This document shows, one piece after another, positions 1,016 through 19,393 of a DNA stretch of 51,245 nt. The position numbers and the translations under genes were made by a program. This stretch comes from Meiothermus luteus (GTDB taxonomy: Bacteria; Deinococcota; Deinococci; Deinococcales; Thermaceae), in assembly GCF_003574085.1 (NCBI RefSeq), contig NZ_QWKZ01000003.1, forward strand, positions 1 through 51,245. Direction: 5' to 3'. Positions within the stretch are counted from its first letter, which is position 1. Each line of letters opens with the position of its first letter. The notes under the pieces are model-generated. The model ran no database searches. It saw only the letters and a program-made list of their open reading frames with translations, and had not been told where the DNA came from.

Positions 1016-1720
1016 ATGACGCCGCACATTTCTGCCCCCAAAGAGGCCATTGCTGAAATCGTGCTGCTCCCGGGAGACCCCCTGCGGGCCAGGCACATCG
1101 CCGAGAGCTTCCTAGAAGACCCCGTGCTCTACAACCAGGTGCGGGGCATGCTCGGCTACACCGGCACCTACCGGGGCCGCCGGGTGAGCGTGCAGGGAAC
1201 CGGCATGGGTATTCCCTCGGCCAACATATACATTCACGAACTTATCCAGTTTTACGGCTGTAAGACCTTGGTCCGGGTGGGGACCGCGGGGGCCATCCAA
1301 CCCCACCTGCGCCTGCGGGATTTGGTCATCGCCCAGGCCGCCTGCACCGACTCCTCCCTCAACAACCTGCGCTTTGGTGGGCAAAACTACGCCCCTATCG
1401 CCAGCTTTTCCCTCTTGTACCGGGCTTTTGAGCGGGCCCAGGCCCGGGGGATGCCGGTCTATGTGGGCAACGTTCTCTCCACCGACACCTTCTACCCCGA
1501 AGACCCCGAGGCCTACCGGCTTTGGGCCCAGTACGGGGTGCTGGCGGTGGAGATGGAGGCCGCCGGGCTTTATACCCTGGCGGCCCGCTTTGGCGTGGAG
1601 GCCCTTTGCATCCTGACCGTGAGCGACCACCTGATAACCGGGGAGCGCTCAACCCCCGAGGAGCGGCAGGAAACCTTCAACCAGATGGTTGAACTGGCCC
1701 TGGAGACGGTGGCAGGGTAG
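1016..1720 (+). CDS. deoD: DeoD-type purine nucleoside phosphorylase
   Basis: This 234-residue protein has the hexameric PNP layout. An LLPGDPLRA phosphate-binding loop lies near residues 18-26, an RVGTAGA motif near residue 90, a MEME-like substrate segment (VEMEAAGL) near residue 180, and the catalytic Asp in VSDHLITGE near residue 205. It cleaves purine (deoxy)nucleosides with phosphate to free base and (deoxy)ribose-1-phosphate in the cytoplasm, for purine salvage. The length is normal for DeoD. It is probably leaderless. Its stop is 1 nt from the convergent stop of the dehydrogenase gene, so the two transcripts must run into each other. Confidence 0.95.
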
Positions 1721-1721
1721 C

Positions 1722-3239
1722 TCAGCGCACCTGGGGGAAGCCCAGGTCTACCTTGGAGGTGCTGGGATCGGGCCAGCGGCTGGTGACCACCTTGGCTCGG
1801 GTGTAGAACTGAACTCCCTCCGGGCCGTACATGTGCAGGTCGCCGAACAGGCTGGCCTTCCAACCGCCGAAGCTGTAGTAGGCCACCGGCACCGGGATGG
1901 GCACGTTAATCCCCACCATTCCCGCCTCCACGTCAAACTGGAACTGCCGGGCTGCCCCGCCGTCGCGGGTGAAGATGGCGGTCCCATTGCCGTAGGGGTG
2001 CTCGTTGATGAGCCGGACCGCTTCCTCGTAGGTTTTGACCCGTACCACGCTGAGCACCGGACCAAAGATTTCCTCGTCGTAGCACTTCATGCCGGGTTTT
2101 ACGTGGTCCAGCAGGCTTACCCCCAGGAAGAAGCCCTCCCGTTTGGCGATAGGGTCTTGACGGCCGTCCACCACCACTGTGGCCCCTTCTTTGGGCGCGT
2201 TTTCAATATAGGAGGCCACCTTGTCGCGGTGCTCGCGGGTGACCAAGGGGCCCATCTCCACCCCTTCTTCCAGCCCCGGCCCCACCTTGATTTTGGGCAA
2301 GCGCTCCTTGATGGCGGCGATCAGGGCTTCGGCGGTGCTATCGCCCACCGCCACCACCACCGAGATGGCCATGCAGCGCTCCCCGGCGGAGCCATAGGCG
2401 GCGCTTACCGCGGCGTCGGCGGCCATTCCGATGTCGGCGTCGGGCAGCACCACCATGTGGTTCTTGGCCCCGCCCAGGGCCTGTACCCGCTTTCCGTTTT
2501 TGGTGCCGGTCTCGTAGATGTACTTGGCGATGGGGGTAGAGCCTACGAAGCTCACGGCCTTGATCTCGGGGTGCTCCAGCAGCCGATCCACCGCTACCTT
2601 GTCGCCCTGCACCACGTTGAAGACCCCATCGGGAAGCCCCGCTTCCTTCAGCAGCTCGGCCAGGAAGAGGCTGGGGGAGGGGTCTTTTTCCGAGGGTTTG
2701 AGGACGAAGGTGTTGCCGCAGGCGATGGCGTTGGCGAACATCCACATCGGCACCATGGCCGGGAAGTTGAAAGGGGTGATCCCGGCCACCACGCCCAGGG
2801 GCTGGCGAATTTGGTAAACGTCTACCCCCCGGCTTACCTGCTCGGAGTAGCCGCCTTTGAGAAGGTGGGGGATTCCGGTGGCGAACTCCACGTTCTCTAG
2901 GCCCCGGGCCACCTCACCCAGGGCATCGGCCAGGGTCTTGCCGTGCTCGAGCACGATCAGCTCGGCCAGCCGGCGGCGGTTTTGGTCCAAGAGCTCCCGG
3001 AACTTGAACATGATCTCGGCCCGCCGCGAAAGCGGGGTCTGCCGCCAGCTTTTGAAGGCCTCTTTGGCCACCGCCACAGCCTGGTCCACCTCTTCCACCG
3101 AGGCGAAGTCCACCACCGCCTGCTGCTCGCCGGTGGCTGGGTTCCAAACCGGCCCGCTGCGCCCCGACCGGCCCTCCACTACCCGGCCGCCAATCCAGTG
3201 AGAGACGCGCTTTAGGGTTACTTGGGGTTCCTTGACCAT
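1722..3239 (-). CDS. mmsA: CoA-acylating methylmalonate-semialdehyde dehydrogenase
   Basis: The 505-residue aldehyde dehydrogenase has the catalytic Cys at residue 289 in GSAGERCM. The usual general-base Glu of aldehyde dehydrogenases is replaced by Asn in GGAKNH near residue 260. That change is typical of the CoA-acylating MMSDH/IolA branch, which converts (methyl)malonate semialdehyde plus CoA and NAD+ to propionyl- or acetyl-CoA and CO2 in valine or inositol breakdown. The cofactor region ITPFNFP is near residue 155. The reading frame stays open upstream to about 3587. The start at 3239 is chosen because an AAAGGAGG ribosome site sits 7 nt before it and the family begins there. No other valine or inositol gene is nearby. 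Confidence 0.93.
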   Translation of the reverse strand: MVKEPQVTLKRVSHWIGGRVVEGRSGRSGPVWNPATGEQQAVVDFASVEEVDQAVAVAKEAFKSWRQTPLSRRAEIMFKFRELLDQNRRRLAELIVLEHGKTLADALGEVARGLENVEFATGIPHLLKGGYSEQVSRGVDVYQIRQPLGVVAGITPFNFPAMVPMWMFANAIACGNTFVLKPSEKDPSPSLFLAELLKEAGLPDGVFNVVQGDKVAVDRLLEHPEIKAVSFVGSTPIAKYIYETGTKNGKRVQALGGAKNHMVVLPDADIGMAADAAVSAAYGSAGERCMAISVVVAVGDSTAEALIAAIKERLPKIKVGPGLEEGVEMGPLVTREHRDKVASYIENAPKEGATVVVDGRQDPIAKREGFFLGVSLLDHVKPGMKCYDEEIFGPVLSVVRVKTYEEAVRLINEHPYGNGTAIFTRDGGAARQFQFDVEAGMVGINVPIPVPVAYYSFGGWKASLFGDLHMYGPEGVQFYTRAKVVTSRWPDPSTSKVDLGFPQVR

Positions 3240-3380
3240 ACCTGCCTCCTTTGGGCTTCGTGTGAGAGTAGACTTTGGCGCCCAGACAGATTCATGGTAG
3301 GCGCAGGGCCCGGCCGGTGCAATGGACAGGGTGTCTAAAGACTCACATTCAGCTGGCCCCTCTCTATTAGGCTGGCCGCC

Positions 3381-4328
3381 ATGAGCGAGCTGTATGCCCT
3401 GTACCAGCGCCGCGCCAGCGTGCGGAAGTTTAAGCCCGAACCCTTGCGGGAAGGGGATCTGGAGAAGATACTCTTCGCCGCCCAGCGCGCTCCCACCGAC
3501 GCCACTGCGCAGATGTACAGCCTGTTGCGGGTCAGCGATCCCCTGCTTCGGCGCCAGATATCCAGCCATTCCGGGCGGAACCCCCACATAGAGACCTGCG
3601 CGGAGTTTTTCCTGATTCTAGCCGATGTCCACCGGCTGCAGAGGCTGCTCGAGCACCGAGGGGAGGCGCTTGGGCGCTGGCCCCGAACCGCCCTGCACTT
3701 TGCCATTGTGGACGCGGTGCTGGCCGGGAGCGCCTTGGCCACCATGGCCGAGAGCCTGGGTTACGGCATCGTCTGGATTGGGGGAGTTTTGAACGGAATT
3801 CGGGAGATTTCCCGGTTGTGTGGGCTGCCTCGAGGCGTGGTCCCGGTGGCAGGGCTTTGCGTAGGGGTGCCCGACGAAGCACCTCCGCCCCGGCCGCGCC
3901 TGCCGCGGAGCATGGTGCTGCACGAGAACCGGTACCGGGCCTACGAGCCTGAGGAGCTCGAGCAGGCCTACGCCCAGATGGCCCCCATCGCCCGCGGGGG
4001 GGACTGGCACGAGCTGCTCAAGCGCTACTTTGCCCAGGGGGGCACCATGGAGGCCCGTGAACCGGCCTACCGGGTCTTTACCGCCCAGCAGGGCTTTGAA
4101 CCCGACCTGCCGGCAGAGCTGCTGGAGCGCCTCCAGGAGAGGGGGTTGGAGGCAGGCAGCCTGGGGGAGCTGATTGCCCAGGCCCACGCCCGGGGGTTTC
4201 GCAGCCTTCAGTTTCACAGCCAGGGCCACGTTTGGATAGAGAAAGAACCCGCCGCCTACCGGGGCCAGGGGGCTCCGGGAGAGGCCCTGGGCCAGGCCCT
4301 GTTGGAAGCCTTGGAACAGGAAGGTTAG
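3381..4328 (+). CDS. Nitroreductase-family flavoprotein (NfsA-like) with C-terminal extension
   Basis: Residues 1 to about 190 match the FMN-dependent nitroreductase/NfsA fold. They include the RRASVRKF phosphate-contact motif at the N terminus, the APTDATAQ segment near residue 38, a GYGIVWIGGV core near residue 127 and a VPVAGLCVGVP strand near residue 155. Such enzymes reduce flavins, quinones or nitro compounds with NAD(P)H. Residues from about 200 to 315 form an extra region that includes YRVFTAQQGFEPDLPAELLE and is not part of the usual 240-residue NfsA protein; I do not recognise it. The substrate is unknown. It is convergent with the unknown gene at 4325-4616. Confidence 0.8.
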   Translation: MSELYALYQRRASVRKFKPEPLREGDLEKILFAAQRAPTDATAQMYSLLRVSDPLLRRQISSHSGRNPHIETCAEFFLILADVHRLQRLLEHRGEALGRWPRTALHFAIVDAVLAGSALATMAESLGYGIVWIGGVLNGIREISRLCGLPRGVVPVAGLCVGVPDEAPPPRPRLPRSMVLHENRYRAYEPEELEQAYAQMAPIARGGDWHELLKRYFAQGGTMEAREPAYRVFTAQQGFEPDLPAELLERLQERGLEAGSLGELIAQAHARGFRSLQFHSQGHVWIEKEPAAYRGQGAPGEALGQALLEALEQEG

Positions 4329-4616
4329 AGGGCTCGGCGGCTCACGGACGTGAGGACTGAGGAGCTGGAAGAGTCGGGAGAGGCGGCTTTCAGGGTAGTA
4401 GGTCTCGCGGTACAGGACGGTGGCCTCCAGCCAAGCCTGGGCCAGGGGCCGGGCGGTAGGCCGCAAGCGGGGAATTTTTTTCCGGAGTTCTTGCTCTAGG
4501 GCGTAAAGCCCCACCGGGCCCTTGCGGTTGTCCAGCTCGGTCAGGACGTTCAGGACCTCGCTGGGGTGGGCCTTGCCCCGCCCGATGCTCTGCCAGATTC
4601 TTTCTTCACAGCTCAT
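4325..4616 (-). CDS. Unknown small protein with a DdrO-type operator on its promoter; 3' end uncertain
   Basis: ATG at 4616 is preceded by AAGAGGTAG, a good ribosome site. The first 95 or so residues (MSCEERIWQSIG onward, including ETYYPESRLSRLFQLL) look like a real soluble protein. I do not recognise the family. The frame does not stop before the convergent nitroreductase gene. It stays open antisense to it down to 3618, and that part is the mirror of a conserved enzyme. A +1 shift after LFQLL would end the protein at a TAA at 4327-4325, the coordinate used here. So either the gene overlaps its neighbour, or a frameshift is present. The -10 box TATAAT (4641-4636) lies inside a perfect 17-bp palindrome, which suggests DdrO repression and induction after DNA damage. 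The existence of the N-terminal coding part is likely; its function is unknown. Confidence 0.6.
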
Positions 4617-4630
4617 AAGCTACCTCTTTT

Positions 4631-4647
4631 TTATGATTATAGCATAA
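4631..4647. promoter_or_regulatory. Radiation/desiccation response motif (RDRM) operator
   Basis: TTATGATTATAGCATAA has 5-bp arms TTATG and CATAA around a 7-bp centre. This is the spacing and arm sequence of the Deinococcus RDRM, recalled as TTATGTNATTNACATAA-like and bound by DdrO. The A/T pairing extends outward as well (TTTTTT left, AAAAAA right). The centre read on the minus strand contains TATAAT, the -10 box of the gene starting at 4616, so a bound repressor would exclude RNA polymerase. Predicted transcription starts about 13 nt before that gene's ATG. Confidence 0.8.
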
Positions 4648-4689
4648 AAAAGTCTGCATAACACGATGTCTAGGGGGAGAGATTACGCC

Positions 4690-4723
4690 TTGACCATAGA
4701 AAGCTTTTATGCTAGCGTCAGAA
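4690..4723 (+). promoter_or_regulatory. ddrO leaderless promoter overlapped by a second RDRM-like site
   Basis: TTGACC (4690-4695) and TAGCGT (4713-4718) are spaced 17 bp and end 7 nt before the ddrO ATG at 4726, a leaderless layout. TTATG-N7-CAGAA at 4707-4723 matches the RDRM arms at 9 of 10 positions and covers the -10 box. That would give DdrO autorepression, as known in Deinococcus. Confidence 0.65.
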
Positions 4724-4725
4724 TC

Positions 4726-5118
4726 ATGACCCTAGCCGAACGCCTGCGTGAGCTGCGCACCCAAAGGGGCTGGCGCCTGAAGGACCTATCCGAGAAAAGC
4801 GGGCTTTCCGTGCCTTACCTCTCCGACCTCGAGCGGGGCCGCACCAACCCCTCTTTGGAAACCCTACAGACCCTGGCCGCCTCCTACGGGCTCAGCGTCA
4901 ACGACCTTTTGGCCCCGGTGGACTTCTACGGCGAGCGTACCCCTGCCTCGCTGCCCAAGGGACTGGCGGAGCTGATTGCCGACCCCCAGCTTGGGGCGGA
5001 GATAACCCCGGAGTGGCAGCAGACCCTCTCTCGGATCGAACTGCGGGGCAAGCGGCCGGAGTCTAAGCGCGACTGGTACGAGATATACCTGCACCTCAAG
5101 CGGGTCTTGGAGGGCTGA
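4726..5118 (+). CDS. ddrO: DdrO-type XRE-family transcriptional repressor
   Basis: This 130-residue protein has an XRE helix-turn-helix at residues 5-60 ([34 protein letters not shown]). Its C-terminal domain closely follows Deinococcus DdrO: FYGERTP near 68, [12 protein letters not shown] near 76-87, RIELRGKR at 103-110, and [14 protein letters not shown] at the end. DdrO represses the DNA-damage regulon as a dimer and is inactivated when IrrE/PprI cuts it. As I recall, the Deinococcus cut is between Leu106 and Arg107, and here Leu106-Arg107 falls at exactly the same numbers in the LRGK motif. The frame extends upstream to 4666. The start at 4726 is chosen from family alignment and from the -10 box placed 7 nt before it. 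The probable IrrE gene is two genes downstream. Confidence 0.9.
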
Positions 5119-5136
5119 GGGCCTCCGCCCGGCCGT

Positions 5137-5604
5137 ATGGAGCGTCCGATCCTGACCCGAGAGTGGGGTTTTCTGGTGGCGGGCTACGCGGTGCGCACCG
5201 CCCACAGCGCCGAGGCCGACCCCAGCAGGGCCCGGCTCCCTGGGCTCTGGGCCCAGCTAGAGGGGGGGGCCCTCGAGCTGGCCCTGCCCCGCCGGCTGGC
5301 CAAGGGCAAGCCCTTTGTGGTCTACCACGACTACGATGCGGACCAGGACCGCTGCACAATGCTGGTGGGCTATCAGGTGCGCGGGCTGGAGGATGTGCCC
5401 GATGGGCTTGCTGCGCTCAACGTTCCTTCGGGGCGCTATCTGATGTTCACCGCCCAAGGGCCCCAGCCCCAGACGGCCCGCCGGGCCTGGGTGGAGGTAG
5501 AGGCCTACTTCCGCCAGCCCCACGCGCCGCGGCGGGCCTACAGCTTTGATTTTGAGGTCTACGAAAACCATCTGCGGGCCTCAATATTTGTGGCGGTTCG
5601 CTGA
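5137..5604 (+). CDS. GyrI-like / AraC effector-binding domain protein
   Basis: The 155-residue protein consists of one GyrI-like small-molecule-binding fold. It has paired strand-helix repeats, a YHDYDADQDRCTMLVGYQV segment in the middle, a PSGRYLMFTAQGP strand near residue 96, and a C-terminal SFDFEVYEN strand. No DNA-binding domain is present, so it is a stand-alone effector-binding protein. Such domains bind hydrophobic or cationic ligands, and in GyrI they block DNA gyrase. It lies 18 bp after ddrO and 10 bp before the IrrE-like gene, so the three are almost surely co-transcribed. Its role in the module is unknown. The family call is moderate to good; ligand and partner cannot be read. 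Confidence 0.75.
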   Translation: MERPILTREWGFLVAGYAVRTAHSAEADPSRARLPGLWAQLEGGALELALPRRLAKGKPFVVYHDYDADQDRCTMLVGYQVRGLEDVPDGLAALNVPSGRYLMFTAQGPQPQTARRAWVEVEAYFRQPHAPRRAYSFDFEVYENHLRASIFVAVR

Positions 5605-5614
5605 GGGAACACTG

Positions 5615-6334
5615 GTGGACCTGCGTCAACGGGTTTTGGATCTGGCCCGGGCTTACCGCCGGGCCCAGGCCCCTCTCACCCCGGCGCGGCTGGCAGGGGG
5701 GGTAGGGGTCCACCTGGCCTACGGCCGGATGCCAGAGGGGCGTTTTGGCGCCTGGATGCCTGAGCAGAACCTCATCCTGCTGGACCCTCAGGCCCCGCTG
5801 CGGCGGCAGCGCTTCACCCTGGCCCACGAGGTCATGCACCTCCTCATCCAGCAGGACCCCGACCTCCTCTCCGAGCTGCACGAGGCCTACGCGGGGAAGG
5901 CGCTGGAGCGGGAGCTGGAGGCCCTGTGCAACCTGGGGGCGGCGGAGATGCTCCTGCCGAGTGAGGCGGTGGAGGCGGCCATCGCCCGGAAGGGGCAGAC
6001 CCCAAGGCTGGTTTTGGAGCTGGCCGAGCAGCACCAGGTTTCGGAGGAGGTGGCCATCATCGCCCTGGCTGAGCGAGGCCCGGTCCCCTCCTTGGTGCTG
6101 ATGGCGGGAGGACAGCCCCTGCGGGTCTACTTCAGCGCCCGGCACCCCAGCATTCCCGACCGGCTCTCCCGGGGGCTGGGTTTTCGCCGCGAGGACCCCT
6201 TGGCGGTGGCCTTGGAAACCGGTCTGCCCCAGCGGGCCGAGGCCCGCCTGCCCAACCATGCCCAGACCTACCACCTCGAGGCCTACCCCAAAGGGGGACG
6301 GGTTTACGCGGTTTACAAGGCCCGGCTAGACTGA
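5615..6334 (+). CDS. irrE: IrrE/PprI-type ImmA-family zinc metallopeptidase
   Basis: This protein has the COG2856 protease core. HEVMH at residues 71-75 gives zinc ligands His71 and His75 and catalytic Glu72. Glu102 in the segment LEALCNLGAAEMLLP lies 27 residues after His75, the same gap I recall between His86 and Glu113 of Deinococcus IrrE. After residue 150 comes a C-terminal domain rich in strands (LVLMAGGQPLRVYFS, RGLGFRREDPLA) that fits the GAF-like sensor part of IrrE. At 239 residues it is shorter than the roughly 280-330 of Deinococcus proteins, mainly at the N terminus. GTG at 5615 is chosen for the GAGGG site 7 nt upstream; an in-frame ATG at 5546 would overlap the previous gene. 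Role inferred: cleavage of the DdrO encoded upstream after DNA damage. Confidence 0.82.
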   Translation: MDLRQRVLDLARAYRRAQAPLTPARLAGGVGVHLAYGRMPEGRFGAWMPEQNLILLDPQAPLRRQRFTLAHEVMHLLIQQDPDLLSELHEAYAGKALERELEALCNLGAAEMLLPSEAVEAAIARKGQTPRLVLELAEQHQVSEEVAIIALAERGPVPSLVLMAGGQPLRVYFSARHPSIPDRLSRGLGFRREDPLAVALETGLPQRAEARLPNHAQTYHLEAYPKGGRVYAVYKARLD

Positions 6335-6342
6335 GGCGGTTT

Positions 6343-6750
6343 ATGGAGTACCCTATTCCCACCGTGGGCGCGTTGGCTCGAGGGCCCCAGGGCCGCGTGT
6401 TGATCGTGAGGACGGCCAAGTGGAACGGGCTTTGGGGGGTGCCGGGGGGTAAGGTGAACTGGGGGGAGCCGCTGGAGGCGGCCTTGAGGCGCGAGTTTTT
6501 GGAGGAGGTGGGGCTCGAGCCCTCCCGGCTTCGCTTCGCCCTTCTGCAGGAGGGGGTTTTTGACCCGGAATTTTACAGGCCGGTGCACTTTCTGTTCGTG
6601 AACTACTTTGCCGAGGTGGCGAGCGAGCGGGTGCGGCCGGGCCAGGAAATTTTGGAATGGGCCTGGCTGGAGCCAGAGGTGGCTTTGGGCTACCCCTTGA
6701 ACCGGATTACCCGTGGCCTCCTCGAGGTCTACCTGCGGGAGGAGGGATGA
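6343..6750 (+). CDS. NUDIX hydrolase
   Basis: A complete Nudix box lies at about residues 35-58: GGKVNWGEPLE, then RREFLEEVG, with the metal-binding REXXEE core. The 135-residue length fits single-domain Nudix pyrophosphatases, which hydrolyse a nucleoside diphosphate linked to another group. The substrate is unknown. It overlaps the next gene by 4 nt (ATGA) and lies two genes before folE2. A role in removing pyrophosphate from dihydroneopterin triphosphate is therefore a reasonable guess. It follows the IrrE-like gene by 8 bp and may share its transcript. Confidence 0.88.
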   Translation: MEYPIPTVGALARGPQGRVLIVRTAKWNGLWGVPGGKVNWGEPLEAALRREFLEEVGLEPSRLRFALLQEGVFDPEFYRPVHFLFVNYFAEVASERVRPGQEILEWAWLEPEVALGYPLNRITRGLLEVYLREEG

Positions 6751-7460
6751 GGCGGGTAGCCCTGGTGACCGGCTCCGCCAGGGGTATCGGGCGGGCCATC
6801 CTGCTGGCCTTGGCCGGGGCCGGTTTTGACGTGGCGGTCCACTACCGCACGAGCGAGGAGGAGGCCGAGGAGACCCGCAGGCAGGCCGAGGGGCTGGGGG
6901 TGCGGGCCATTAAGCTTAGGGCCGATGTGACCCGGCTCGAGGAGGCCCAAGGGCTGATCCGCGCTGTGGTGGAGGGCCTGGGGGGGCTTCATGTTCTGGT
7001 CAACAACGTGGGGGACTACCTCAAAAAGCCGGTGGAGGCCCTGAGCCCCGAGGAGTGGTGTAGGATACTGGACTCTAACCTCAATGCCCCTTTCTACCTG
7101 ACCCAGGCCGCCCTCCCTTACCTGTGCGCGAGCGGCTACGGCCGGGTGGTGAACCTGGGCTTCGCTGGGGCCCAACAGCTTCGGGCCTGGCCGCAGATCA
7201 CCCCTTACGCGGTGGCCAAGACCGGCCTCATCCTCTACACCAAGGCCCTGGCCCAGCGCCTGGCGCCTCGGGGGGTCACGGTGAACGTGGTGGCCCCCGG
7301 GGTGGCCGAGAACTCCGTTTCTAAGCCGGTGAGCGAGATTCCCATGGGTCGCTTGGCGGCCCTGTCGGAGGTGGCCCGGGCGGTGCTCTTTTTCGTGGAG
7401 GAGGGCAGCGGCTACCTGACCGGGCAGGTGCTCGAGGTGGCCGGGGGTTGGAACCTCTGA
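6747..7460 (+). CDS. Short-chain dehydrogenase/reductase, possibly a pteridine reductase
   Basis: The 237-residue protein has the SDR cofactor motif TGSARGIGRA (residues 8-17), NNVG near residue 90, the active-site YAVAK near residue 157 and a C-terminal VAGGW. The catalytic Ser expected 12-13 residues before the Tyr is replaced: the segment is VNLGFAGAQQ with Gly/Ala there. FolM/PTR1 pteridine reductases also lack that Ser, and the gene lies directly upstream of the folE2 leader, so dihydropteridine reduction is plausible. The Arg at position 3 and the HYRTS segment after strand 2 favour NADPH. The start is set by the ATGA overlap with the Nudix gene. Fatty-acid FabG-type activity is less likely, because the Ser is missing. 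Confidence 0.8.
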   Translation: MRRVALVTGSARGIGRAILLALAGAGFDVAVHYRTSEEEAEETRRQAEGLGVRAIKLRADVTRLEEAQGLIRAVVEGLGGLHVLVNNVGDYLKKPVEALSPEEWCRILDSNLNAPFYLTQAALPYLCASGYGRVVNLGFAGAQQLRAWPQITPYAVAKTGLILYTKALAQRLAPRGVTVNVVAPGVAENSVSKPVSEIPMGRLAALSEVARAVLFFVEEGSGYLTGQVLEVAGGWNL

Positions 7461-7485
7461 CCGCGCTGGGGCGCTTAGACCATCG

Positions 7486-7657
7486 TTCAGGTTACGTTTA
7501 GCCTTCGTATAAGGTGGCATATTGGGCGGGTGTGGTCTGAAGCGTCCACACGGGCCCTCGGGCTGGGCGGAAGGGAGACGGCCCAGGGGCCCCGGCTGGG
7601 CTCCCTTCACCTGGCCACCAGACTCTCGAGGTTGCTGGTGGGAATAAGGAGACGCCC
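7486..7657 (+). promoter_or_regulatory. Promoter and structured 5' leader of folE2
   Basis: TTCAGG (7486-7491) and TATAAG (7508-7513), spaced 16 bp, could start a leader of about 138 nt. Two strong hairpins can form. In the first, AAGGGA (7571-7576) and GCCCAG (7581-7586) pair with CTGGGC (7596-7601) and TCCCTT (7602-7607). In the second, CCACCAG (7615-7621) pairs with CTGGTGG (7635-7641). The second ends 4 nt before the AAGGAG ribosome site at 7646-7651, where it could gate translation. I do not recognise a known riboswitch class. Confidence 0.4.
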
Positions 7658-8686
7658 TTGCTTCGCTACGACGATAAGCAAACCCTCGAGCCCCTCCCTC
7701 CTAGTGGGCAAAACGGTGGCAGAAAGGCCTACCTGTTTCGCAATACCGATGGCGCCGAGCCGGTGATTCCACGGGTCTACGACGCCCATTTCCGCCCCGA
7801 TGAGGCCTACCGGGCCAGCCTGCCCGACATGACCGAGACGGTGGATGCGGTGGAGGGGGCCAATGTGCCCATCCCGCAGGTGGGCATTGCGGGTTTCCGG
7901 CTGCCCCTTCGCTTCGCCGTCCCCTCAGGGGAGCCTTTGCTCCTGGAGGCCCGGGTGACGGGAACGGTCTCCCTCGAGGCCGACCTCAAAGGCATCAACA
8001 TGAGCCGGATTATCCGCACCTTCTACGCCCGAAAGGAGGCGATCTTTGACCTGGATACGCTGGCCCAGGTGGTGCGCGACTACCAGCGGGAGCTGGGCAG
8101 CCTCAGCGCCCGGGTCAGGGTGGCCTTTAGCTACCCTATGCTGGTGCCCTCGCTCCGCTCGGGTCTGGAGGGCTACCAGTACTACGATGGCCGCTATGAA
8201 GCGGCGGTAGAGGGGAGCGGGCCGGTGCGCCGCTATGTCGAGCTGGACTTTGTTTACTCCTCGGCCTGCCCTTGCTCGGCGGAGCTGGCCGAGCACGCCC
8301 GCGACGTGCGGGGGGCCTACGCCATACCCCATAGCCAGCGTTCGGTGGCCCACCTCAGGGTGGAGGTGGCGGAAGGGGCCCGGCTGCACCTGGAAGACCT
8401 GGTTCATCACGCCCGGGAGGCTCTCAAGACCGAGGTTCAGGTGATGGTCAAGCGAGAGGATGAGCAGGCCTTTGCCGAGCTGAACGGGGTCTACGTGAAG
8501 TTCGTGGAAGACGCGGTGCGCCTGCTTTACGCCAGGTTGGTGGCCGACCCCCGCATCCACGACTTCCAGGTAGCCTGCGCCCACCTGGAGAGCCTGCACG
8601 CCCACGATGCGGTTGCGGTGATAGCCAAGGGGGTGCCAGGAGGTTTTCGGCCCGACTTCACCGATTTTTCCAGCCTGGTGCGCTAG
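7658..8686 (+). CDS. folE2: GTP cyclohydrolase I, type IB (FolE2)
   Basis: The protein has the FolE2/MptA signature: KGINMSR near residue 111, a [13 protein letters not shown] segment with Cys204 and Cys206, and a C-terminal [14 protein letters not shown] stretch carrying metal ligands. It converts GTP to 7,8-dihydroneopterin triphosphate, the first step of folate and queuosine/pterin synthesis. FolE2 enzymes tolerate metals other than zinc. The start is TTG at 7658, supported by AAGGAG 6 nt upstream; no better ATG exists. At 342 residues it is somewhat longer than the usual 260-310, because of a longer N terminus. The preceding Nudix and SDR genes fit a pterin pathway group. It overlaps the convergent pckG by 4 nt. 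Confidence 0.92.
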
Positions 8687-10539
8687 GTGCTGTACCCCTC
8701 ACCCCCCACGTCCCAGTGCTGGGGAGAGCGCCAGAGATTGGAGATAAGAATCTCCCGCATGGCCAGGAACTCCTTGGGCATCCGGGTGTAGAGCTTGATA
8801 AAGAGCTCCTCGTGGGAGAGGATTTCCTTGAGCCATAGGTCGCGGTCTATGGCCATCAGCTCCTGAAACTGCTCCTTGCTGAAGTTGAGCCCCCGCCAGT
8901 CCAGGTCTTCGTAGCGGGGCACGTAGCCCAGGGGGCTTTCGGTGGCGTAGCCCCGCCCGTTGGCCCGCTCCACAATCCACTTCAGCACCCGCATGTTCTC
9001 ACCGTAGCCGGGCCACAGGTAGTTTCCGTCCTTGTCCTTGCGGAACCAGTTCACGCTGAAGATGCGCGGAGGGTCCACCACGCGGCGGCCTATATCCAGC
9101 CAGTGGTTGAAGTAGCTGGCCATGTGGTAGCCGATAAAGGGCAGCATGGCGAAGGGATCGCGCCGCACCTCGCCAATTTGTCCGAAGGCCGCTGCGGTCA
9201 TCTCCGAGCCCATGGTGGCCCCTAGGTACACCCCGAAGCTCCAGTTGAAGCTTTGGTAGACGAGCGGGACCACCGTGGCCCGCCGACCGCCGAAGATGAA
9301 GGCCTTGATGGGCACCCCCTTGGGATTGTCCCACTCGGGGTCAATGGCCGGGTTTTGATGGGCTGGAGCGGTGAAACGCCCGTTGGGGTGGGCTGCTTTT
9401 CGGCCGCAGTCGGGCGTCCACTCGTTGCCCTGCCAGTCAATGGCCCTGGCCGGGGGCGGGCCGTCCATGCCCTCCCACCACACGTCCCCCTCCGGCGTGA
9501 GGGCCACGTTGGTGAAGATGGTGTTGGCCCGGATGGTCTCCATGGCATTGGGGTTGGTGGCGTAGGAGGTACCGGGGGCCACCCCGAAGTAGCCCGCCTC
9601 GGGGTTAATGGCATACAGGCGGCCGTCGGGGCCGGGCTTAATCCAGGCGATGTCGTCGCCCACCGTGGTAACCTTCCAGCCCTCTTCCTGGAAGGGCTTG
9701 GGGGGGACCAGCATGGCGAAGTTGGTCTTGCCGCAGGCCGAGGGGAAAGCCGCCGCCACGTAGGTCTTCTGGCCCTTAGGGTCTTGTACCCCCAGGATGA
9801 GCATGTGCTCGGCAAGCCAGCCCTCGTCGCGCCCGATAACGCTGGCAATGCGCAAGGCCAAAGCCTTTTTGCCCAGCAAGGCGTTGCCCCCGTACCCGGA
9901 GCCGTAGCTCCAAATGCTGCGCTCCTCGGGAAAGTGCACGATGTACTTGGTGGGGTTGCAAGGCCAAGGAACGTCTTTCTGACCGGGTGCTAGAGGCATG
10001 CCCACGCTGTGCATACAGGGCACGAAGTCGCCGTCCTCGCCCAGCACATCGTAGACCGCCTTGCCCATCCGGGTCATGATTCTCATGTTGACCACCACAT
10101 AGGCCGAGTCGGTGATTTCTATGCCGATGTAGCTGATGGGCGAGCCCAGCGGCCCCATGCTGAAGGGCACCACGTACATGGTGCGGCCCCGCATGCAGCC
10201 GTCGAAGAGCTCCAGGAGGGTGGCCTTCATCTCCTTGGGGTTGACCCAGTTGTTGGTAGGACCGGCGTCCTCCTTGTTAAGGGAGCAGATGAAGGTGCGG
10301 TCTTCCACCCGGGCCACGTCGCTGGGATCGGTGCGGGCTAAGAAGCTGCCCGGACGCAGCTTTGGGTTCAGGCGGATGAAGGTCCCGCTGGCCACGAGTT
10401 GGTCGCACAGGGCCCGGTACTCCTCCTCTGAGCCATCGCAGAAGTGAACCGCGTCCGGCTTGCACAGGGCCACCGCTTCGGCAATCCACCGCTTGACCCG
10501 TTCGTTTCGGATGTAGGGGGGAAACTCGAGGTTCTGCAT
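8683..10539 (-). CDS. pckG: Phosphoenolpyruvate carboxykinase (GTP)
   Basis: The 618-residue protein spans the whole GTP-type PEPCK family. It has the P-loop [14 protein letters not shown] near residue 265, the metal-binding [10 protein letters not shown] segment near residue 295, and the EGMDGPPP region. It turns oxaloacetate and GTP into phosphoenolpyruvate, CO2 and GDP, the first committed step of gluconeogenesis. The GTP-type rather than the ATP-type enzyme is certain from these motifs. The start ATG at 10539 matches the family and has no obvious ribosome site. A TAGAGT box 9 nt upstream suggests a near-leaderless transcript. Confidence 0.96.
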
Positions 10540-10624
10540 GTCGCATTAACTCTAAAGGGTAGGGCCAGTTCTTGCACAAGCACTTTGCTGGGCCTGGTTG
10601 TAGACTTGGGGGTGGAGGAGCGTT

Positions 10625-11629
10625 ATGAAGCTGAGCCGAGGGAAGTACCAGCGGATACAGGCCTGTGCGGACGAAAGAGGGGTCATTGCTGCTGCCGCCA
10701 TGGACCAGCGGGGTTCGCTCCGCAAGGCCATCGCCAAGGCCAAAGGGGCCGAGGTTAGCGATGCTGAATTGACCGAATTCAAGACCGCGGTGGTCAAAAT
10801 CCTAACCCCCTACGCCTCGGCGATTCTGATGGACACCGAGTATGGCTTGCCAGCTCTCCAGCACAAGGCTCCCCGTACCGGGGTTCTGTTGGCTTATGAG
10901 AAGTCGGGGTACGATACCAGCGTACCCGGGAGGCTTCCCGACCTTCTTCCTGAGCTGAGCGTGCGGCGCATCCAGGAGCTTGGTGGGGATGCGGTTAAGA
11001 TCCTTCTGTACTACAACCCCGAGGACGATGCCAAAATCAACGCCATCAAGCACGCCTTTGTGGAGCGCGTGGGGGCGGAGTGCGCTGCGCTGGAGATGCC
11101 CTTTTTCCTCGAGCCCATCGCCTACGACGACCGGTTGGGAGAGGGGCTGGAGATGGCCAAGGCCAAGCCGCGCTACGTGGCCAAGTACATGGAGGAGTTC
11201 TCTAAGGACCGCTATGGGGTGGATGTGCTCAAGGTGGAGTTCCCCTTCAACATCGCTTATACCAGCGGCACCTTGGGCTTCAAGGGCGAGGCTGCCTACA
11301 CCCGCGCCCAGGCCCTGCAGTTCCTGAAGGACACCGCCAGCGCTGCGGGCAAGCCCTTCATCTACCTTTCGGCCGGGGTGAGCGACGCGGTTTTCCGGGA
11401 GTCGCTGGAGATGGCTGCGGAGGCCGGGGTGCCCTACAGCGGGGTGCTCTGTGGACGGGCCACCTGGCAGGACGGCATCCCCGTGTACGCCCAAAAGGGC
11501 CTGGCGGCCCTGGAGGATTGGCTCTCCGACCAGGGGGTGAAGAACATCCAGATGCTCAACGCTGTGCTGGCCAAAGGAGCCAAGCCTTGGTGGACGGTTT
11601 ACGGCAGCCCGGAGGCGGCTTTGGCCTAA
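10625..11629 (+). CDS. lacD: Tagatose-1,6-bisphosphate aldolase, LacD family
   Basis: The 334-residue protein has the class I LacD layout: an AAMDQRGSLRK segment near residue 20, LMDTEYGLPA near residue 73, and the Schiff-base Lys in VDVLKVEFP near residue 200. It cleaves tagatose-1,6-bisphosphate to dihydroxyacetone phosphate and glyceraldehyde-3-phosphate, and several family members also use fructose-1,6-bisphosphate. The other lac/tagatose kinase and isomerase genes are absent nearby. A general glycolytic or gluconeogenic aldolase role beside divergent pckG is therefore as likely as galactose use. A GGAGGAG ribosome site precedes the ATG, and TAGACT at 10601-10606 may be the -10 box. Confidence 0.9.
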   Translation: MKLSRGKYQRIQACADERGVIAAAAMDQRGSLRKAIAKAKGAEVSDAELTEFKTAVVKILTPYASAILMDTEYGLPALQHKAPRTGVLLAYEKSGYDTSVPGRLPDLLPELSVRRIQELGGDAVKILLYYNPEDDAKINAIKHAFVERVGAECAALEMPFFLEPIAYDDRLGEGLEMAKAKPRYVAKYMEEFSKDRYGVDVLKVEFPFNIAYTSGTLGFKGEAAYTRAQALQFLKDTASAAGKPFIYLSAGVSDAVFRESLEMAAEAGVPYSGVLCGRATWQDGIPVYAQKGLAALEDWLSDQGVKNIQMLNAVLAKGAKPWWTVYGSPEAALA

Positions 11630-11652
11630 GGCTTTTCGCCTTGGGGGGTTTG

Positions 11653-11661
11653 TGCTAGACT
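11653..11661 (+). promoter_or_regulatory. Extended -10 promoter of rpmH
   Basis: TGC followed by TAGACT (11656-11661) forms an extended -10 element about 45 nt before the rpmH ribosome site. The ten bases GTGCTAGACT are identical to those upstream of ndk on the other strand. Confidence 0.5.
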
Positions 11662-11712
11662 GCAAGGGTTGCCTGGCTCGGCCCGGCAGGACTTCACGCC
11701 TGGAGGAACCCG

Positions 11713-11871
11713 ATGAAGCGCACTTGGCAGCCCAACAAGCGTAAGCGGGCCAAGACCCATGGTTTTCGTGCCCGAATGAAGACCGCCGGCGGCCGCAAGG
11801 TGCTGGCGCGCCGTCGCGCCAAAGGCCGCCACAAGCTTACCGTGAGCAGCGAGCCCCAGCTTCGGCGCTAA
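11713..11871 (+). CDS. rpmH: 50S ribosomal protein L34
   Basis: This 52-residue basic protein starts [18 protein letters not shown] and carries [21 protein letters not shown], the universal L34 pattern. It is a structural protein of the large ribosomal subunit. A TGGAGGAAC ribosome site precedes the ATG. It is the first gene of the classical rpmH-rnpA-yidD-yidC-jag block near replication origins. In Thermus, rpmH lies inside an extended out-of-frame rnpA. Here the rnpA frame has a TGA at 11843-11845 and no start codon between there and 11918, so the two genes are separate. Confidence 0.97.
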
Positions 11872-11890
11872 GCCTGGGGCAACGCCGGGG

Positions 11891-11914
11891 CTCCCCAGTT
11901 TTGGGGAGTTTTTT
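11891..11914 (+). terminator. Intrinsic terminator between rpmH and rnpA
   Basis: CTCCCC (11891-11896), a 6-nt AGTTTT loop, GGGGAG (11903-11908) and six T residues form a canonical terminator. The T run ends 3 nt before the rnpA ATG, and the 3' arm GGGGAG is also the only Shine-Dalgarno candidate for rnpA. The element would therefore both end most rpmH transcripts and hide the rnpA ribosome site. Confidence 0.85.
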
Positions 11915-11917
11915 ACC

Positions 11918-12250
11918 ATGCCCTTCTCTTCGCTAAAGGGGGAAAAAGCCTTCCAACGCCTGCGTGGGGGGCGGGTGGGGCGCGGGAAGTACCTGGTGCT
12001 CCGCTGGCTTCCCTTGCGGCCTACCGCCTACAACCCGGTGCGGGTGGGCATTGTGGTCTCGAGCAAGGTTTCCAAGAAGGCCACCGTGCGCAACAGAATC
12101 CGCCGACGCTTGCGGGAGATTCTTCGGAAGATGCACCTTCCGCCCTCAGAGATGGTCATCTGGGTGCAGCCTGAAGCGGTAGAGGCTTCCTACTGGGACC
12201 TGCTGCGCGACCTAGGGCATGCTTTGAAGAAGAGCGGGCTGGTACAATAG
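11918..12250 (+). CDS. rnpA: Ribonuclease P protein component
   Basis: This basic 110-residue protein has the RnpA fold. It shows [17 protein letters not shown] and the family box [13 protein letters not shown] at about residues 59-71. It binds the RNase P RNA and helps mature tRNA 5' ends. The length is normal for bacteria, unlike the N-terminally extended Thermus proteins. The start ATG at 11918 directly follows a terminator, so expression should depend on read-through from rpmH. It is followed after 7 nt by yidD. Confidence 0.94.
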
Positions 12251-12257
12251 CACGGGT

Positions 12258-12557
12258 ATGGGAGCAGGAGTCCGGGTGGAAGCGGCCGTGAAGCGGTTCT
12301 TGGTAGGGGGTGTGCGCTTTTACCAGCGCTATCTTTCCCCCTTGAAGCCCCCTACCTGCCGTTTCTACCCTACCTGCAGCCACTACGCTTTGGAGGCCCT
12401 CGAGCGCCACGGACCCTTCTGGGGACTCTATCTAAGCGTGAGGCGCATCCTCAAATGCCATCCGCTGCACCCAGGGGGGATAGACCGGGTACCCGAGGAG
12501 CACCCTAGGGTTCGCTGGAGCCCCCTGGGGGTGCGAAAAAAAGGAGCATCTGGATGA
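12258..12557 (+). CDS. yidD: Membrane protein insertion efficiency factor YidD
   Basis: The 99-residue protein carries all the YidD marks: an N-terminal amphipathic or hydrophobic helix, [27 protein letters not shown] with its paired Cys, and [12 protein letters not shown]. It sits on the inner face of the cytoplasmic membrane and supports YidC- and Sec-dependent insertion. The stop overlaps the yidC start by 4 nt, so translation is probably coupled. Confidence 0.94.
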
Positions 12558-13930
12558 GACGTTGGTTTTGGACGAGTCTGGCTTTTTTCGCCCTAGCCCC
12601 CGCCCTGGCCCTCACCCCTGAGTGGCGGGAGGTGGACGTGAACAAAGACGGCCGGCCCGAGAGGGTGGCGGTAACCAACCTGGCCGATGTGGCCTTCAAC
12701 CTGCAAGGCCAGATTGTGGGCTGGTATGTCAAGACCGCCCGCGCCACCGACTTCAAGGGCAACTATGAGCGGGCCCACAACCTGGTCCGCCCAGGGCAGA
12801 CCCCTCCGGGCACCCTTGAGGGTTTTGTGCCCACCACCTTTGAGTTTACCCGGCGCGAGGCAGGCAACCCCGATGCCGACTTCATCGCCACCTTCAGCGA
12901 TGGCTCCACCCGCCTCACCTACACCATCCACCCCCGCTTCCTAACCTTGGAGGTGGAGGTGGAAAGCCCCACCCCGCGCAAGCTCATCTGGACCGGCATT
13001 GGGGGCACCGATACGCCCATTACCAAGTGGCTTGGCCTGGGCAACGCCCAGCCCATCAACGCTGGGCAGGGGCCTGCGGTCTATGTGGGCTGGCAGACCC
13101 AGAAGGGTTCCGGTTTCGCCATGTTTCTCAGACCCCAAGAGCCCACCCCTATCAGCATGACCCAGCTCAACGGAGCGGGCATTGCCGAGGTAAGCCTTCC
13201 GGCGGGGAAGACCAGCCTGAAGGTGTACGGCGGCCTGAACGAGTTGGTTCGGCTGCATGTGGAGGGGTTTTACCAGCTTCCTGGGGTTTTCCAGCCCAAC
13301 ATCTGGGGGCAGGTTTCGCTGGGGCTCATCTGGGCCCTGGAGCAGGCCCATCGGCTGGCCGGGGGAAGCTGGATTCTGGCCATTTTGATCGTGACCGTGG
13401 GCATCCGGCTCTTGATGTGGCCTCTGATGCACCAGCAGTTCAAGAGCATCGCCGAGATGCAGAAAATCCAGCCCCTCATAAAGAAAATCCAGGAGAAGTA
13501 CAAGGACAACAAGGAGAAGCAGCAGGAAGAGATGATGAAGCTCTACCAGGAACACAGGATTAATCCCCTGGGGGGCTGCTTTCCAATCCTCCTGCAGATG
13601 CCCATCCTTTTCCTCATGTACAAGGTGATGGTGGGCTACGAGTTTGGCCAGGGCTTCTTGTGGATTCGGGACCTGGCCCTGCCCGATCCCCTTTACATCC
13701 TGCCTTTCTTGTACATTGTGGTGCTTCTGGCCTCGACCTGGCTTTCGGCGGCCGGGAACAAGGACGCCTTGCGCCAGGGTATTCTCATTAACCTGGTGTT
13801 TGCCTTCATCCTCTTTAGCTTTCCGGCTGGGGTTACCCTATACTGGCTGGTCTCCACGCTGATAGGGGTGGGCCAGCAGTGGCTCATCAACAAGCAACTG
13901 GGTCTGCCCCTGGCCCCAGCCAAAGGGTAG
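12554..13930 (+). CDS. yidC: Membrane protein insertase YidC
   Basis: This 458-residue YidC has an N-terminal hydrophobic segment (residues 3-20) and an extracytoplasmic beta-rich P1 domain at about 21-255. Its C-terminal 60KD insertase core of five membrane segments begins near residue 258. The core has a conserved Arg in [11 protein letters not shown], a charged coiled hairpin rich in Lys and Glu ([20 protein letters not shown]), and [15 protein letters not shown]. It inserts membrane proteins, alone or with SecYEG. The P1 domain is smaller than in E. coli (548 residues in total). A terminator follows. Confidence 0.95.
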
Positions 13931-13946
13931 GCCGCCAAACCCTATG

Positions 13947-13977
13947 CCCCCGGCTCGAGGTCCGGGGGTCTATTTTT
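13947..13977 (+). terminator. Intrinsic terminator after yidC
   Basis: CCCCCGG (13947-13953) pairs with CCGGGGG (13962-13968) around CTCGAGGT and is followed by TCTATTTTT. It lies 17 bp after the yidC stop and 28 bp before jag. Confidence 0.85.
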
Positions 13978-14004
13978 CCTTGGTAAGCTATAAAGCGATT
14001 ACGT

Positions 14005-14607
14005 ATGGATGACAAGAAGCGTGGACTTGACGACCTGTTGTCCGACCTGGGGATTGGGGAGAACGAAGCCGCCCCCGAGGTCGTGCCGAGGGAGGAGGAG
14101 GGGCCCATTGTGGCCCCAGCCCCTCCGCAGGAGGACCCTAAGAGCGTCCTGGAGAACTTCTTGGTGGGGCTTTTGCTGCGTTTAGACCCTGCCTACTCGG
14201 TGGATGTGCAGCAGCAGGAGAACCTCTTTCGAGTGGAGGTTTTGGGGGGGGACTCAGGGCGGGTGATTGGCCGTGAGGGGAGGACGCTGCAGAGCCTGGA
14301 GTTCCTTACCAACGTGGTCATGGCCAAGCATTTTGGCCCGGCCTACCGGGTGGTGCTGGATGCCGCAGGCTACCGCAGGCGCAACGAGGAGCGCATCCGT
14401 CGGCTGGCTGCCGACGCCGCGCTGCAGGTGGAGATGAGCGGCCAGCCGGTGGAGCTACCCCCCATGCGCCCGAGCGAGCGGCGCATCATCCACGTCTTGC
14501 TGAAGCAGCACCCCAAGGTGACCACCACCTCGGTTGGGGAAGGGGAAGCCCGGCACGTGGTGGTGATGCCCCGGGCTGAGGCCGAAAGCTCACCGGAGGA
14601 GCCCTAA
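14005..14607 (+). CDS. jag: Jag/KhpB RNA-binding protein (KH and R3H domains)
   Basis: The 200-residue protein has an acidic, Pro/Glu-rich N-terminal stretch (residues 1-50) in place of a full Jag-N domain. A KH domain with the GREG loop (GRVIGREGRTLQSLEF) lies near residues 85-105, and an R3H domain with RNEERIRRLA and PMRPSERRIIH lies near 125-170. It binds RNA and is linked to cell elongation and YidC partners in other bacteria. A TATAAA box 10 nt before the ATG suggests its own short-leader promoter after the yidC terminator. prmC starts 6 nt downstream. Confidence 0.92.
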   Translation: MDDKKRGLDDLLSDLGIGENEAAPEVVPREEEGPIVAPAPPQEDPKSVLENFLVGLLLRLDPAYSVDVQQQENLFRVEVLGGDSGRVIGREGRTLQSLEFLTNVVMAKHFGPAYRVVLDAAGYRRRNEERIRRLAADAALQVEMSGQPVELPPMRPSERRIIHVLLKQHPKVTTTSVGEGEARHVVVMPRAEAESSPEEP

Positions 14608-17513: not shown

Positions 17514-19393
17514 ATGTTGGCCCTGCGCCTGCGCCTTTTGTGGAACGGCTTTCGCCAGAGTCCTGCTGCGGCCCTCCTGGGCTTTTCCCTGGGGGCGGGG
17601 CTGGCTTTTGGAATGGGCTGGGGCACGAGCTGGTTTCTTAACTTCCTTAGCAACGAGATTTTTGGCAGCGGTGCGTTTTTGAATCGCCTAGTGGCGGCTT
17701 TCACCCGAGATGTGTTGGTAGACCGGCTTCTGGGAAGCTTGCTCCTGGTACTCTCCAGTGCGGTGGTTCTCTCCGCCTTGCCCAACGCGGTTTCGGTTCT
17801 CTACGCCTCGGAGGATTTGCCCTTGCACCTGGCCTTGCCGCAGAGTGCGGTCCGGGTCTTTTTGTTCAAGGTGGGCGAGGTTTTTGCGGTCACCGCACTT
17901 TGGCCCACCCTGCTCCTGCTGCCGGTGCTTTTTGCCTATGGCCTGCACTACGCTGCTCCACCGGTCTTTTTTGTGGGCGCGGTGGCGGTTGCACTCTGCC
18001 TTTTCGCCTTTCCAGTGGCTTTAGGGGTGGGGCTGGCCCTGCCCCTAGTGCGATACGCCCCAGCCGGCCGGGCCCGGGAGTGGGCGGCGGCGGTAGGGGC
18101 GGTGCTGGGCGGGGCCTTGATTTTCCTGCTGCGGGCCTTGAGGCCCGAGATGCTCATGAACTACTCGCAACCAACTGCGTTTGGTTGGAGTTTCGCGCGA
18201 CCATCCTCACAAGCTTTGACGTGTGTGGGGCACTCGCTTGCGGCTCCCTTTACGCGCATCCCCGTTCCAGGGATGACCCACGAAAGTATTATACAGGGCT
18301 TTGCCCTGGTGGGGCTATCCTTCCCCGGCCAAGGTGGAGCGCTTTGGCCGGGGACTGCCGCCCCACACCCCTATGGTTCAAAACCGATTTCTCCAATCCC
18401 GAAGAGCTGGACCGCTTTTTGGAAGCCTTCCGCGACCCCTCAGCCCCCCTTCTGCCCTCCTCGTTGGCCCAGCAGGCCCTGAAGGGATTGGGCCAGGGGC
18501 AGGTGGGGGAGGCTTTTTGGCTGCTGCTCTTGCTTGCGGGAGGGCTTTTGGTGCTGGTGGGCCTGCTGGCCGGCTACGCCTACCAACAGGGCTGGGTTCG
18601 GGCGCTGGAAGGGTCGGTGCGGGAGCGGGGCATGCAAGGGCCAGGGCTTCTTGACCGCTGGACCATGTCGGGGGTGGTGGGCGCGCTTTGGGCTCGCGAC
18701 CTGCGCCTTTTCTTCCGCGACGCCAACCAGGCGGCCCAGCTCGTTTTGGTAGGGGTTCTGGTGCTCCTATACACCACCAGCCTGCAGTACCTGCCGCTGG
18801 GGGAGGTGCGCTTCCAGCTTGTGGCAGGCTTCATGCACCTGGCCTTCCAGGGGTTCGTGATTGGGGGGGTCGGGGTGCGGCTAGCCTACCCCCTTTTGAG
18901 CCTCGAGGGGCCCAGCTACTGGATGCTCCAGACCGGTCCTGTTTCCAAGCAGACCCTGCTCCTCACCCGCTTTGCCTTGGCCCTTTTTTTCCTGCTGCCC
19001 CTGGGGCTGACCTTGGGCTACTTGTCCCCTAAGGTCCTGGGGCTGGACGCCAACCTTACCCAAATCTCCTTGCTTCTGGCCCTGGCCTCGGCCTTGGCCA
19101 CAGCCGGCTTGGGGGTGGGGCTGGGAGCGGCCTACCCCAAGTTTGATGCTGCCAACCCCGCAGAGGTCCCCCTGAGCACCGGTGGATTTTTGTATATGGC
19201 CCTGACCCTCCTGCACGCGGGGATGCTGGTCCTCCTGGCCAGCCGCCCGGTCTATTTGGCCTTGGTGGAGCGCCAGAGCAGCTACCTAACCAGCCCGGAA
19301 GGGCCCCTTTGGCTCTTGGTGCTGGTGCTTGTGACCTTGGTGCCGGTGGGGTTGGCGTTGGGTTTTGGCTACCTGCGGATGGGGGAGAGGTAA
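17514..19393 (+). pseudogene. ABC-2/ABC_export-type exporter permease, split by an insertion
   Basis: The N-terminal part (frame of 17514, to about 18160) and the C-terminal part (another frame, from about 18390 to the stop at 19393) together make one polytopic membrane protein. It belongs to the putative ABC exporter permease family. The N-terminal part is rich in membrane segments and ends in FLLRALRPEMLMN; the C-terminal part resumes with NPEELDRFLEAFRDPSAPLLPSSL and ends GYLRMGER. The join RPE..LMNP is where homologues read straight through. The 236 bp between the two Asn codons are not protein-like in any frame and shift the frame by 2. The intact product would have about 545 residues with a dozen or so membrane segments. 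No ATPase gene adjoins it. An assembly error is the alternative to a broken gene. Confidence 0.72.
18161..18396. other. Insertion of about 236 bp, rich in short inverted repeats, inside the permease gene
   Basis: Length is measured from the Asn codon at 18159 to the matching Asn codon at 18395. The segment has lower GC and no codon bias. It contains several hairpins: CAACCAA/TTGGTTG near 18168-18187, CAGGGC/GCCCTG near 18294-18308, and CCCCGGCCAA with TTGGCCGGGG near 18323-18353. No clear terminal inverted repeat and no long target-site duplication were found. It could be a miniature mobile or REP-like element. The edges are approximate. Confidence 0.5.

Follow-up and report, generated by a model that had tools for sequence, protein, structure and literature searches.

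The window analysed here, 51,245 nucleotides of Meiothermus luteus (contig NZ_QWKZ01000003.1, forward strand), carries an ABC exporter permease gene that is interrupted by a short insert. Matches to PF16949 (ABC_tran_2) lie on both halves of the gene with the insert between them, as expected from the preliminary description, which had proposed that an insertion splits such a gene. Comparison with empty sites in relatives places the insert at 18156–18376 (221 bp), to be read on the minus strand. In G011, the closest relative, the empty permease site reads GAGCTGCTC-TTCAA-AACCGATTTC, and the window at the same site reads GAGATGCTC-[ATGAA...TATGG]-TTCAA-AACCGATTTC; the pentamer ATGAA (18156–18160) is part of the element and TTCAA (18377–18381) is the target. 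In 17/17 other genomes of the genus the permease gene is present without a stop in the matched part, and all 17 loci are gap-free across the insertion site, where the insert has no counterpart. The insert amounts to 73 codons plus two bases, and the permease frame is therefore shifted, which bears out the earlier remark that protein similarity resumes in another frame; removing the insert restores the frame. The permease gene is a bystander, broken by a frame-shifting insertion.

The edges first proposed, 18161–18396 (236 bp), have to be revised, because the start was set five bases late and the end twenty bases late, the last 20 bases (18377–18396) being the target pentamer followed by coding sequence. 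The interrupted motif had likewise been misread as RPE..LMNP, and is in fact RPE(L/M)LFKTDFSNPEEL. The lower GC content of the insert is real (60.2%, against 62.9% and 64.5% for the two halves of the permease gene), as is its richness in hairpins: on either strand the single-stranded DNA fold of the interval 18161–18396, on which the test was run in place of 18156–18376, was better than 200/200 shuffles (z −5.15 and −4.15). Read on the minus strand, the insert begins CCATAGGGG directly after TTGAA and finishes GCGAGTAGTTCAT, its right end being ...GTAGTTCAT. The features of the locus are as follows.

17514–19393, plus strand: interrupted ABC_tran_2 (PF16949) permease gene, its frame shifted by the 221-bp insert (PF16949 on both sides; alignments of relatives).
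18156–18376, minus strand: probable non-autonomous IS200/IS605-family element (MITE/PATE), 221 bp, with its 5' (left) end at 18376 and its 3' (right) end at 18156 (empty site in G011 and 16 more relatives; six near-identical copies).
18377–18381, minus strand: target pentamer TTGAA (TTCAA on the plus strand), kept once; expected TAM of a partner TnpB (present in the empty G011 permease, the empty G016 IS5 copy and the empty G011 C192 site; precedes all eight elements of the genome).
18309–18376, minus strand: left end with an imperfect subterminal hairpin, outer arms 18309–18315/18360–18366 and inner arms 18322–18332/18344–18354 (inverted repeats; over 18309–18382, 73/74 identity with the C27 IS605 left end).
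18288–18293, minus strand: TATAAT-like box where the left end meets the right half, possibly a weak promoter −10 (TATAAT, TATACT and TATATT in three lineages; promoter scan negative).
18156–18283, minus strand: right half resembling an omegaRNA (reRNA), with homology to right ends in relatives that bear tnpB (model R1, for which only MITE copies were used, matches the right ends of the tnpB elements G011:C85, G000:C27 and G006:C41 along the whole of the model).
18257–18275, minus strand: internal hairpin CATCCC/GGGATG of the right half (inverted repeat; still paired, through G-U and A-U changes, in three MITE lineages).
18225–18281, minus strand: long-range helix of GUGGG (18281–18277) with CCCAC (18229–18225) (in the IS5-borne variant GUGGG/CCCAC becomes GUAGG/CCUAC, a single paired change).
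18163–18191, minus strand: right-end terminal hairpin ACTC-CAACCAA...TTGGTTG-GAGT (99.1% of cells paired, 11 sequences; in two pairs both bases differ between MITEs and IS605 right ends).
18156–18160, minus strand: right-end terminal pentamer TTCAT, the presumed TnpA cleavage site, inside the element (absent from empty sites; the same at the right end of each of seven other related elements).
18136–18155, minus strand: flanking host sequence directly 3' of TTCAT, the would-be guide of the permease copy's omegaRNA (by analogy with ISDra2, as described in the available passages of PMC8612924).

The host genome, a 2.87-Mb draft in 224 contigs (G000 among the genomes compared), contains six copies of the element at 99.5–100% identity at six unrelated loci (contigs C148, C192, C220, C62, C219 and C6), and a seventh full-length copy, at 85% identity, inside an IS5-type transposase gene on contig C1. 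An eighth match is a left end only, and belongs to an IS605 on contig C27. The preliminary description could not recognise the type of element because the other copies were not in its view; its statement that no known element was present is superseded by the seven full-length copies and the one IS605 with the same ends. It had suggested looking for further copies in the genome and for an empty site in relatives, and both comparisons gave a positive answer. All eight elements are preceded by TTGAA and close with TTCAT; the pattern of the flank script demanded these pentamers, and the raw flanks independently show the same. Empty sites with TTGAA were recovered at three loci, namely the permease gene, the IS5-type transposase gene, of which an empty copy in G016 reads GTCTCTTGAAGGCC, and the C192 locus, where, among the 15 loci given, only that of G011 is gap-free across the site, three being gapped and the others not spanning it. 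At the C219 locus, 14/15 of the loci given are gap-free, with a pentamer other than TTGAA. Insertion therefore occurs exactly 3' of TTGAA, with neither duplication nor loss of the target. Hairpins lie subterminally at both ends of the element; terminal inverted repeats were not found, the sole end-to-end inverted match being 6 nt long and partly outside the element. Searches of plasmids, phages and viral contigs, including two with exact patterns, did not find the element. The C6 copy (L014, element 2067–2287) seems to interrupt a short ORF that looks PIN-domain-like by eye.

On C27 lies a complete IS605-type element (L009 4715–6524), in which tnpA and tnpB are divergent. The left end of this element, next to the 3' end of tnpA, is 73/74 identical to that of the small element, and its right end follows tnpB, reading ...GGTTGGTCGTGGGTAG and then TTCAT. 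C27 TnpA matches IS608 TnpA (2a6m, E 1e-22), with the HxH motif and the tyrosine aligned, and Pfam assigns it to Y1_Tnp; C27 TnpB matches ISDra2 TnpB (8h1j, E 1e-43), with three acidic RuvC residues aligned, and carries the Pfam domains OrfB_IS605 and Cas12f1-like_TNB. The roles of the aligned residues in both proteins are well established, and the host of ISDra2, Deinococcus radiodurans, belongs to the same phylum as the present host. Besides C27 TnpB, no TnpB (PF07282) was found in the genome, which has two Y1 transposases. The second of these (L016, G000:C184:10730–11089) is 30% identical to C27 TnpA, and is adjoined by a tnpB-like fragment that PF07282 does not detect. The C27 tnpB stop codon lies within the last eight bases of the element (L009 6517–6524, GTAG/TTCAT), so that the gene and the right-end RNA overlap completely. 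Named relatives of the C27 IS605 occur in Calidithermus roseus and in a Meiothermus MAG. Seven related autonomous or decayed right ends, that of C27 and six elsewhere, all finish GTAGTTCAT, and the pentamer preceding the left end varies among autonomous elements (TTGAA, CTGAA) whereas TTCAT does not, a pattern that agrees with TTGAA as the target and TTCAT as part of the element.

The right half of the small element was examined with a covariance model, R1, built from four MITE copies (three distinct sequences, none of them linked to tnpB) and searched against 111 genomes of the phylum. Directly below the MITEs themselves, the model ranked tnpB-element right ends from G011 (E 5e-4), G000:C27 (0.02) and G006 (0.035), each covering the full length, 1–128; it also gave three more weak matches, in G013, G068 and G070, none of which adjoins a C27-type tnpA or tnpB. 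The module lies at the right end of the transposon, on the tnpB side and adjacent to the flank, an orientation given by the empty sites and by C27. In an alignment that is independent of the model (A5), 99.1% of cells of the terminal hairpin are paired across 11 sequences, and in 2/10 pairs both bases differ between MITEs and autonomous elements, one sequence being a G-U intermediate. Each of the 23 proposed pairs is preserved in the three MITE lineages, and the RNA fold of the IS5-borne variant is more stable than its shuffles (z −4.06). We gave low weight to the high covariation score of a further alignment (A4), because it was fitted to the model, includes two loci in duplicate and has rows that may be chance (L156, L157, L118). 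The internal hairpin was not given a count of its own, since by eye the autonomous copies L038 and L040 each seem to have one mismatch there. Rfam 15 gave no match at E <= 1 inside the element, only three off-element chance hits, and none at E <= 1 in the C27 IS605. A BLAST search of 50 family genomes for a close tnpB partner of the MITE right end found none; besides MITE-like copies it returned one weak partial match (G017) and a truncated relative in G023. That diverged relative of the small element (G023:C1:3022995–3023164; L048 3974–4165, minus strand) ends after the internal hairpin at another palindromic sequence. A second, shorter solo right-end element, of about 140 bp with TTGAA/TTCAT edges, is present at G013:C1:354172 (L159 ~1470–1608), and has a G-U intermediate in its terminal hairpin; it accounts for the weak G013 match of R1. 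Just past the left end, a TATAAT-like box is shared by both complete variants and the truncated relative in G023 (TATAAT, TATACT, TATATT).

Taken as sequence comparison, these results establish a multi-copy element, precisely inserted 3' of TTGAA, with the ends of the C27 IS605 and a right half homologous to the tnpB-side right end. We consider it probable that the insert is a non-autonomous IS200/IS605-family element (MITE/PATE) in which both ends are kept and a stand-alone omegaRNA-like module replaces tnpA and tnpB, and which would be moved in trans by C27 TnpA and have its RNA loaded by the single TnpB. C27 TnpA would mobilise the element in single-stranded form, by peel and paste; the recent copies, and the G018 junction described below, bear on this movement indirectly. 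TnpB would load an RNA that extends from the right end into the flank, and would then cut TTGAA-flanked empty sites, leading to the element being copied back. By analogy, the putative guide would be roughly the 16–20 nt that follow TTCAT, and the target of TnpB would be the excised site, TTGAA plus guide.

The principal alternative is that the element is an ends-only IS605 MITE, whose hairpins serve TnpA as DNA only and whose right half is a decaying remnant with no function as RNA. Between the MITEs and C27 the right half has diverged strongly (24 bits, E 0.02 per genome), no sigma-70 promoter was found in a consensus scan, the main copy folded as RNA is no more stable than its shuffles (z −1.18), and covariation within the MITEs alone, where there are three lineages only, does not exceed that of shuffled alignments (166 of 500). 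This alternative does not readily account for the conservation of about 128 nt at full length, alignable to tnpB right ends well past the terminal hairpin, nor for the retention of 23/23 pairs in the MITE lineages, including a paired change some 70–125 nt from the end. Close TnpB proteins are also few: G007, G013 and G020 have a copy of the element and no TnpB match at E <= 1e-60, and the TnpB matches in G008 and G016 are only 42–43% identical. Because of the divergence, the scarcity of close TnpBs and the ordinary RNA fold of the main copy, the ends-only reading keeps substantial weight as regards function, though not identity; overall we judge it the less probable of the two by some way, yet a serious contender. 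With the right ends so well diverged, compatibility of C27 TnpB with the small element is only presumed. We think it most likely that TnpA acts on the small element in trans, and that the element retains an omegaRNA module, for which flanking host sequence would serve as guide.

Reading the element in reverse, with ATGAA as the target on the plus strand and the element running CTACTCG...TTCAA, is very improbable. Every copy is indeed flanked by ATGAA on that side, but the empty G011 permease has TTCAA and not ATGAA, the empty IS5 and C192 sites likewise have TTGAA, and among autonomous elements it is the left pentamer that varies, never TTCAT; the empty sites rule out an ATGAA target. Equally hard to sustain is an intron-like, self-splicing or excised intervening sequence that would leave the permease functional: the insert is inside a coding gene, and without it the frame is restored, but the other copies occupy unrelated sites, its boundaries, its ends and its partner are all of IS605 type, and no Rfam intron matches at E <= 1. 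An assembly artefact, conceivable in a draft of 224 contigs, is scarcely credible and is refuted for the family as a whole by exact, identical boundaries at seven loci and by the same variant in six other genomes, some of them assembled in 1–3 contigs.

The 85% variant is found inside the IS5-type transposase gene in seven genomes of three genera. The surrounding stretch of about 12.8 kb (L166 about 1300–14130, G000:C1), the left limit of which is set in several genomes by the ends of the segments compared, is 99.4–99.8% identical to the G000 copy in G007, G008, G016 and G023 and 96.0% identical in G020; in G018 it is in two pieces, 99.98% and 98.8% identical to G000. We read this near-identity across three genera as recent horizontal transfer. 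The stretch carries, besides IS5::MITE, an ORF that looks P450-like by eye. G018 lacks the 458 bp that separate the element's TTCAT from a downstream TTGAA, so that TTCAT directly abuts the base 3' of that TTGAA (L176 around 15489, G018:C120, compared with L166 11470–11929; L023 1723). Such a junction would be expected if a cleaved right end had been transferred to a new TTGAA with the left end staying put, and this footprint suggests that the right end of the element can also rearrange host DNA.

A bolder extension of the trans-acting scheme, which we put forward tentatively and think rather unlikely, is that the copies are dispersed, mobile solo guide-RNA genes: seven copies would give the single TnpB seven guides, each directed against its own empty site, and the IS5-borne stub could spread through and police another transposon. 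When the would-be guide of the IS5-borne copy is compared with intact IS5 copies, TTGAA is present, and there is one mismatch in 20 in one G016 copy. With one TnpB, one cognate TnpA and seven small elements, four of which have known empty sites, the trans-guide idea is directly testable, and these Deinococcus-related thermophiles offer a compact natural system in which to ask if a TnpB encoded elsewhere maintains a nuclease-free IS605 derivative.

Stand-alone omegaRNA loci were reportedly described for IscB by Altae-Tran in 2021. Reported as guide-RNA genes with no adjacent nuclease gene, they resemble the present element, the nuclease being IscB there and TnpB here. According to the available passages of PMC8612924, ISDra2 of D. 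radiodurans encodes a Y1 TnpA and TnpB, inserts 3' of TTGAT with no target duplication, and yields an reRNA of about 150 nt from its right end, for which about 16 nt of the flank act as guide. The small element likewise uses a pentanucleotide target without duplication, TTGAA in place of TTGAT; ISDra2, however, is autonomous, with overlapping genes in one direction (PMC8612924, same passages), whereas here the parent genes are divergent, the small element is protein-less, and the counterpart of the reRNA is a putative one. IS608 of Helicobacter pylori shares with the present system the TnpA sequence match (2a6m), subterminal hairpins, the single-strand peel-and-paste logic and a conserved pentamer or tetramer target at the left end (mechanism via those passages of PMC8612924). 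Unlike the small element, IS608 is autonomous, and its target is TTAC.

The nearest parallel is the PATE-like element of Halanaerobium hydrogeniformans, which, in the available passages of PMC7290912, consists of IS605 ends only, about 270 nt with no complete genes: the hairpin of the left end is retained, as are the final 58 nt of tnpB and the 160-nt right end in full. Both are ends-only IS605 derivatives of a parent with divergent tnpA and tnpB; that element is single-copy, whereas six near-identical copies and a variant are present here, and those passages (PMC7290912) do not discuss RNA, whereas here a structure model relates the right half to tnpB right ends. Our literature search, whose reach stopped short of Meers 2023 and Altae-Tran 2021 on the priority of PATE-type omegaRNAs, found no report of the present element, and a search of PMC12558985 yielded no passage on solo omegaRNAs. 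We conclude that the element represents a new, well-behaved family within the known ends-only IS605 derivatives that keep the right end, and not a new class.
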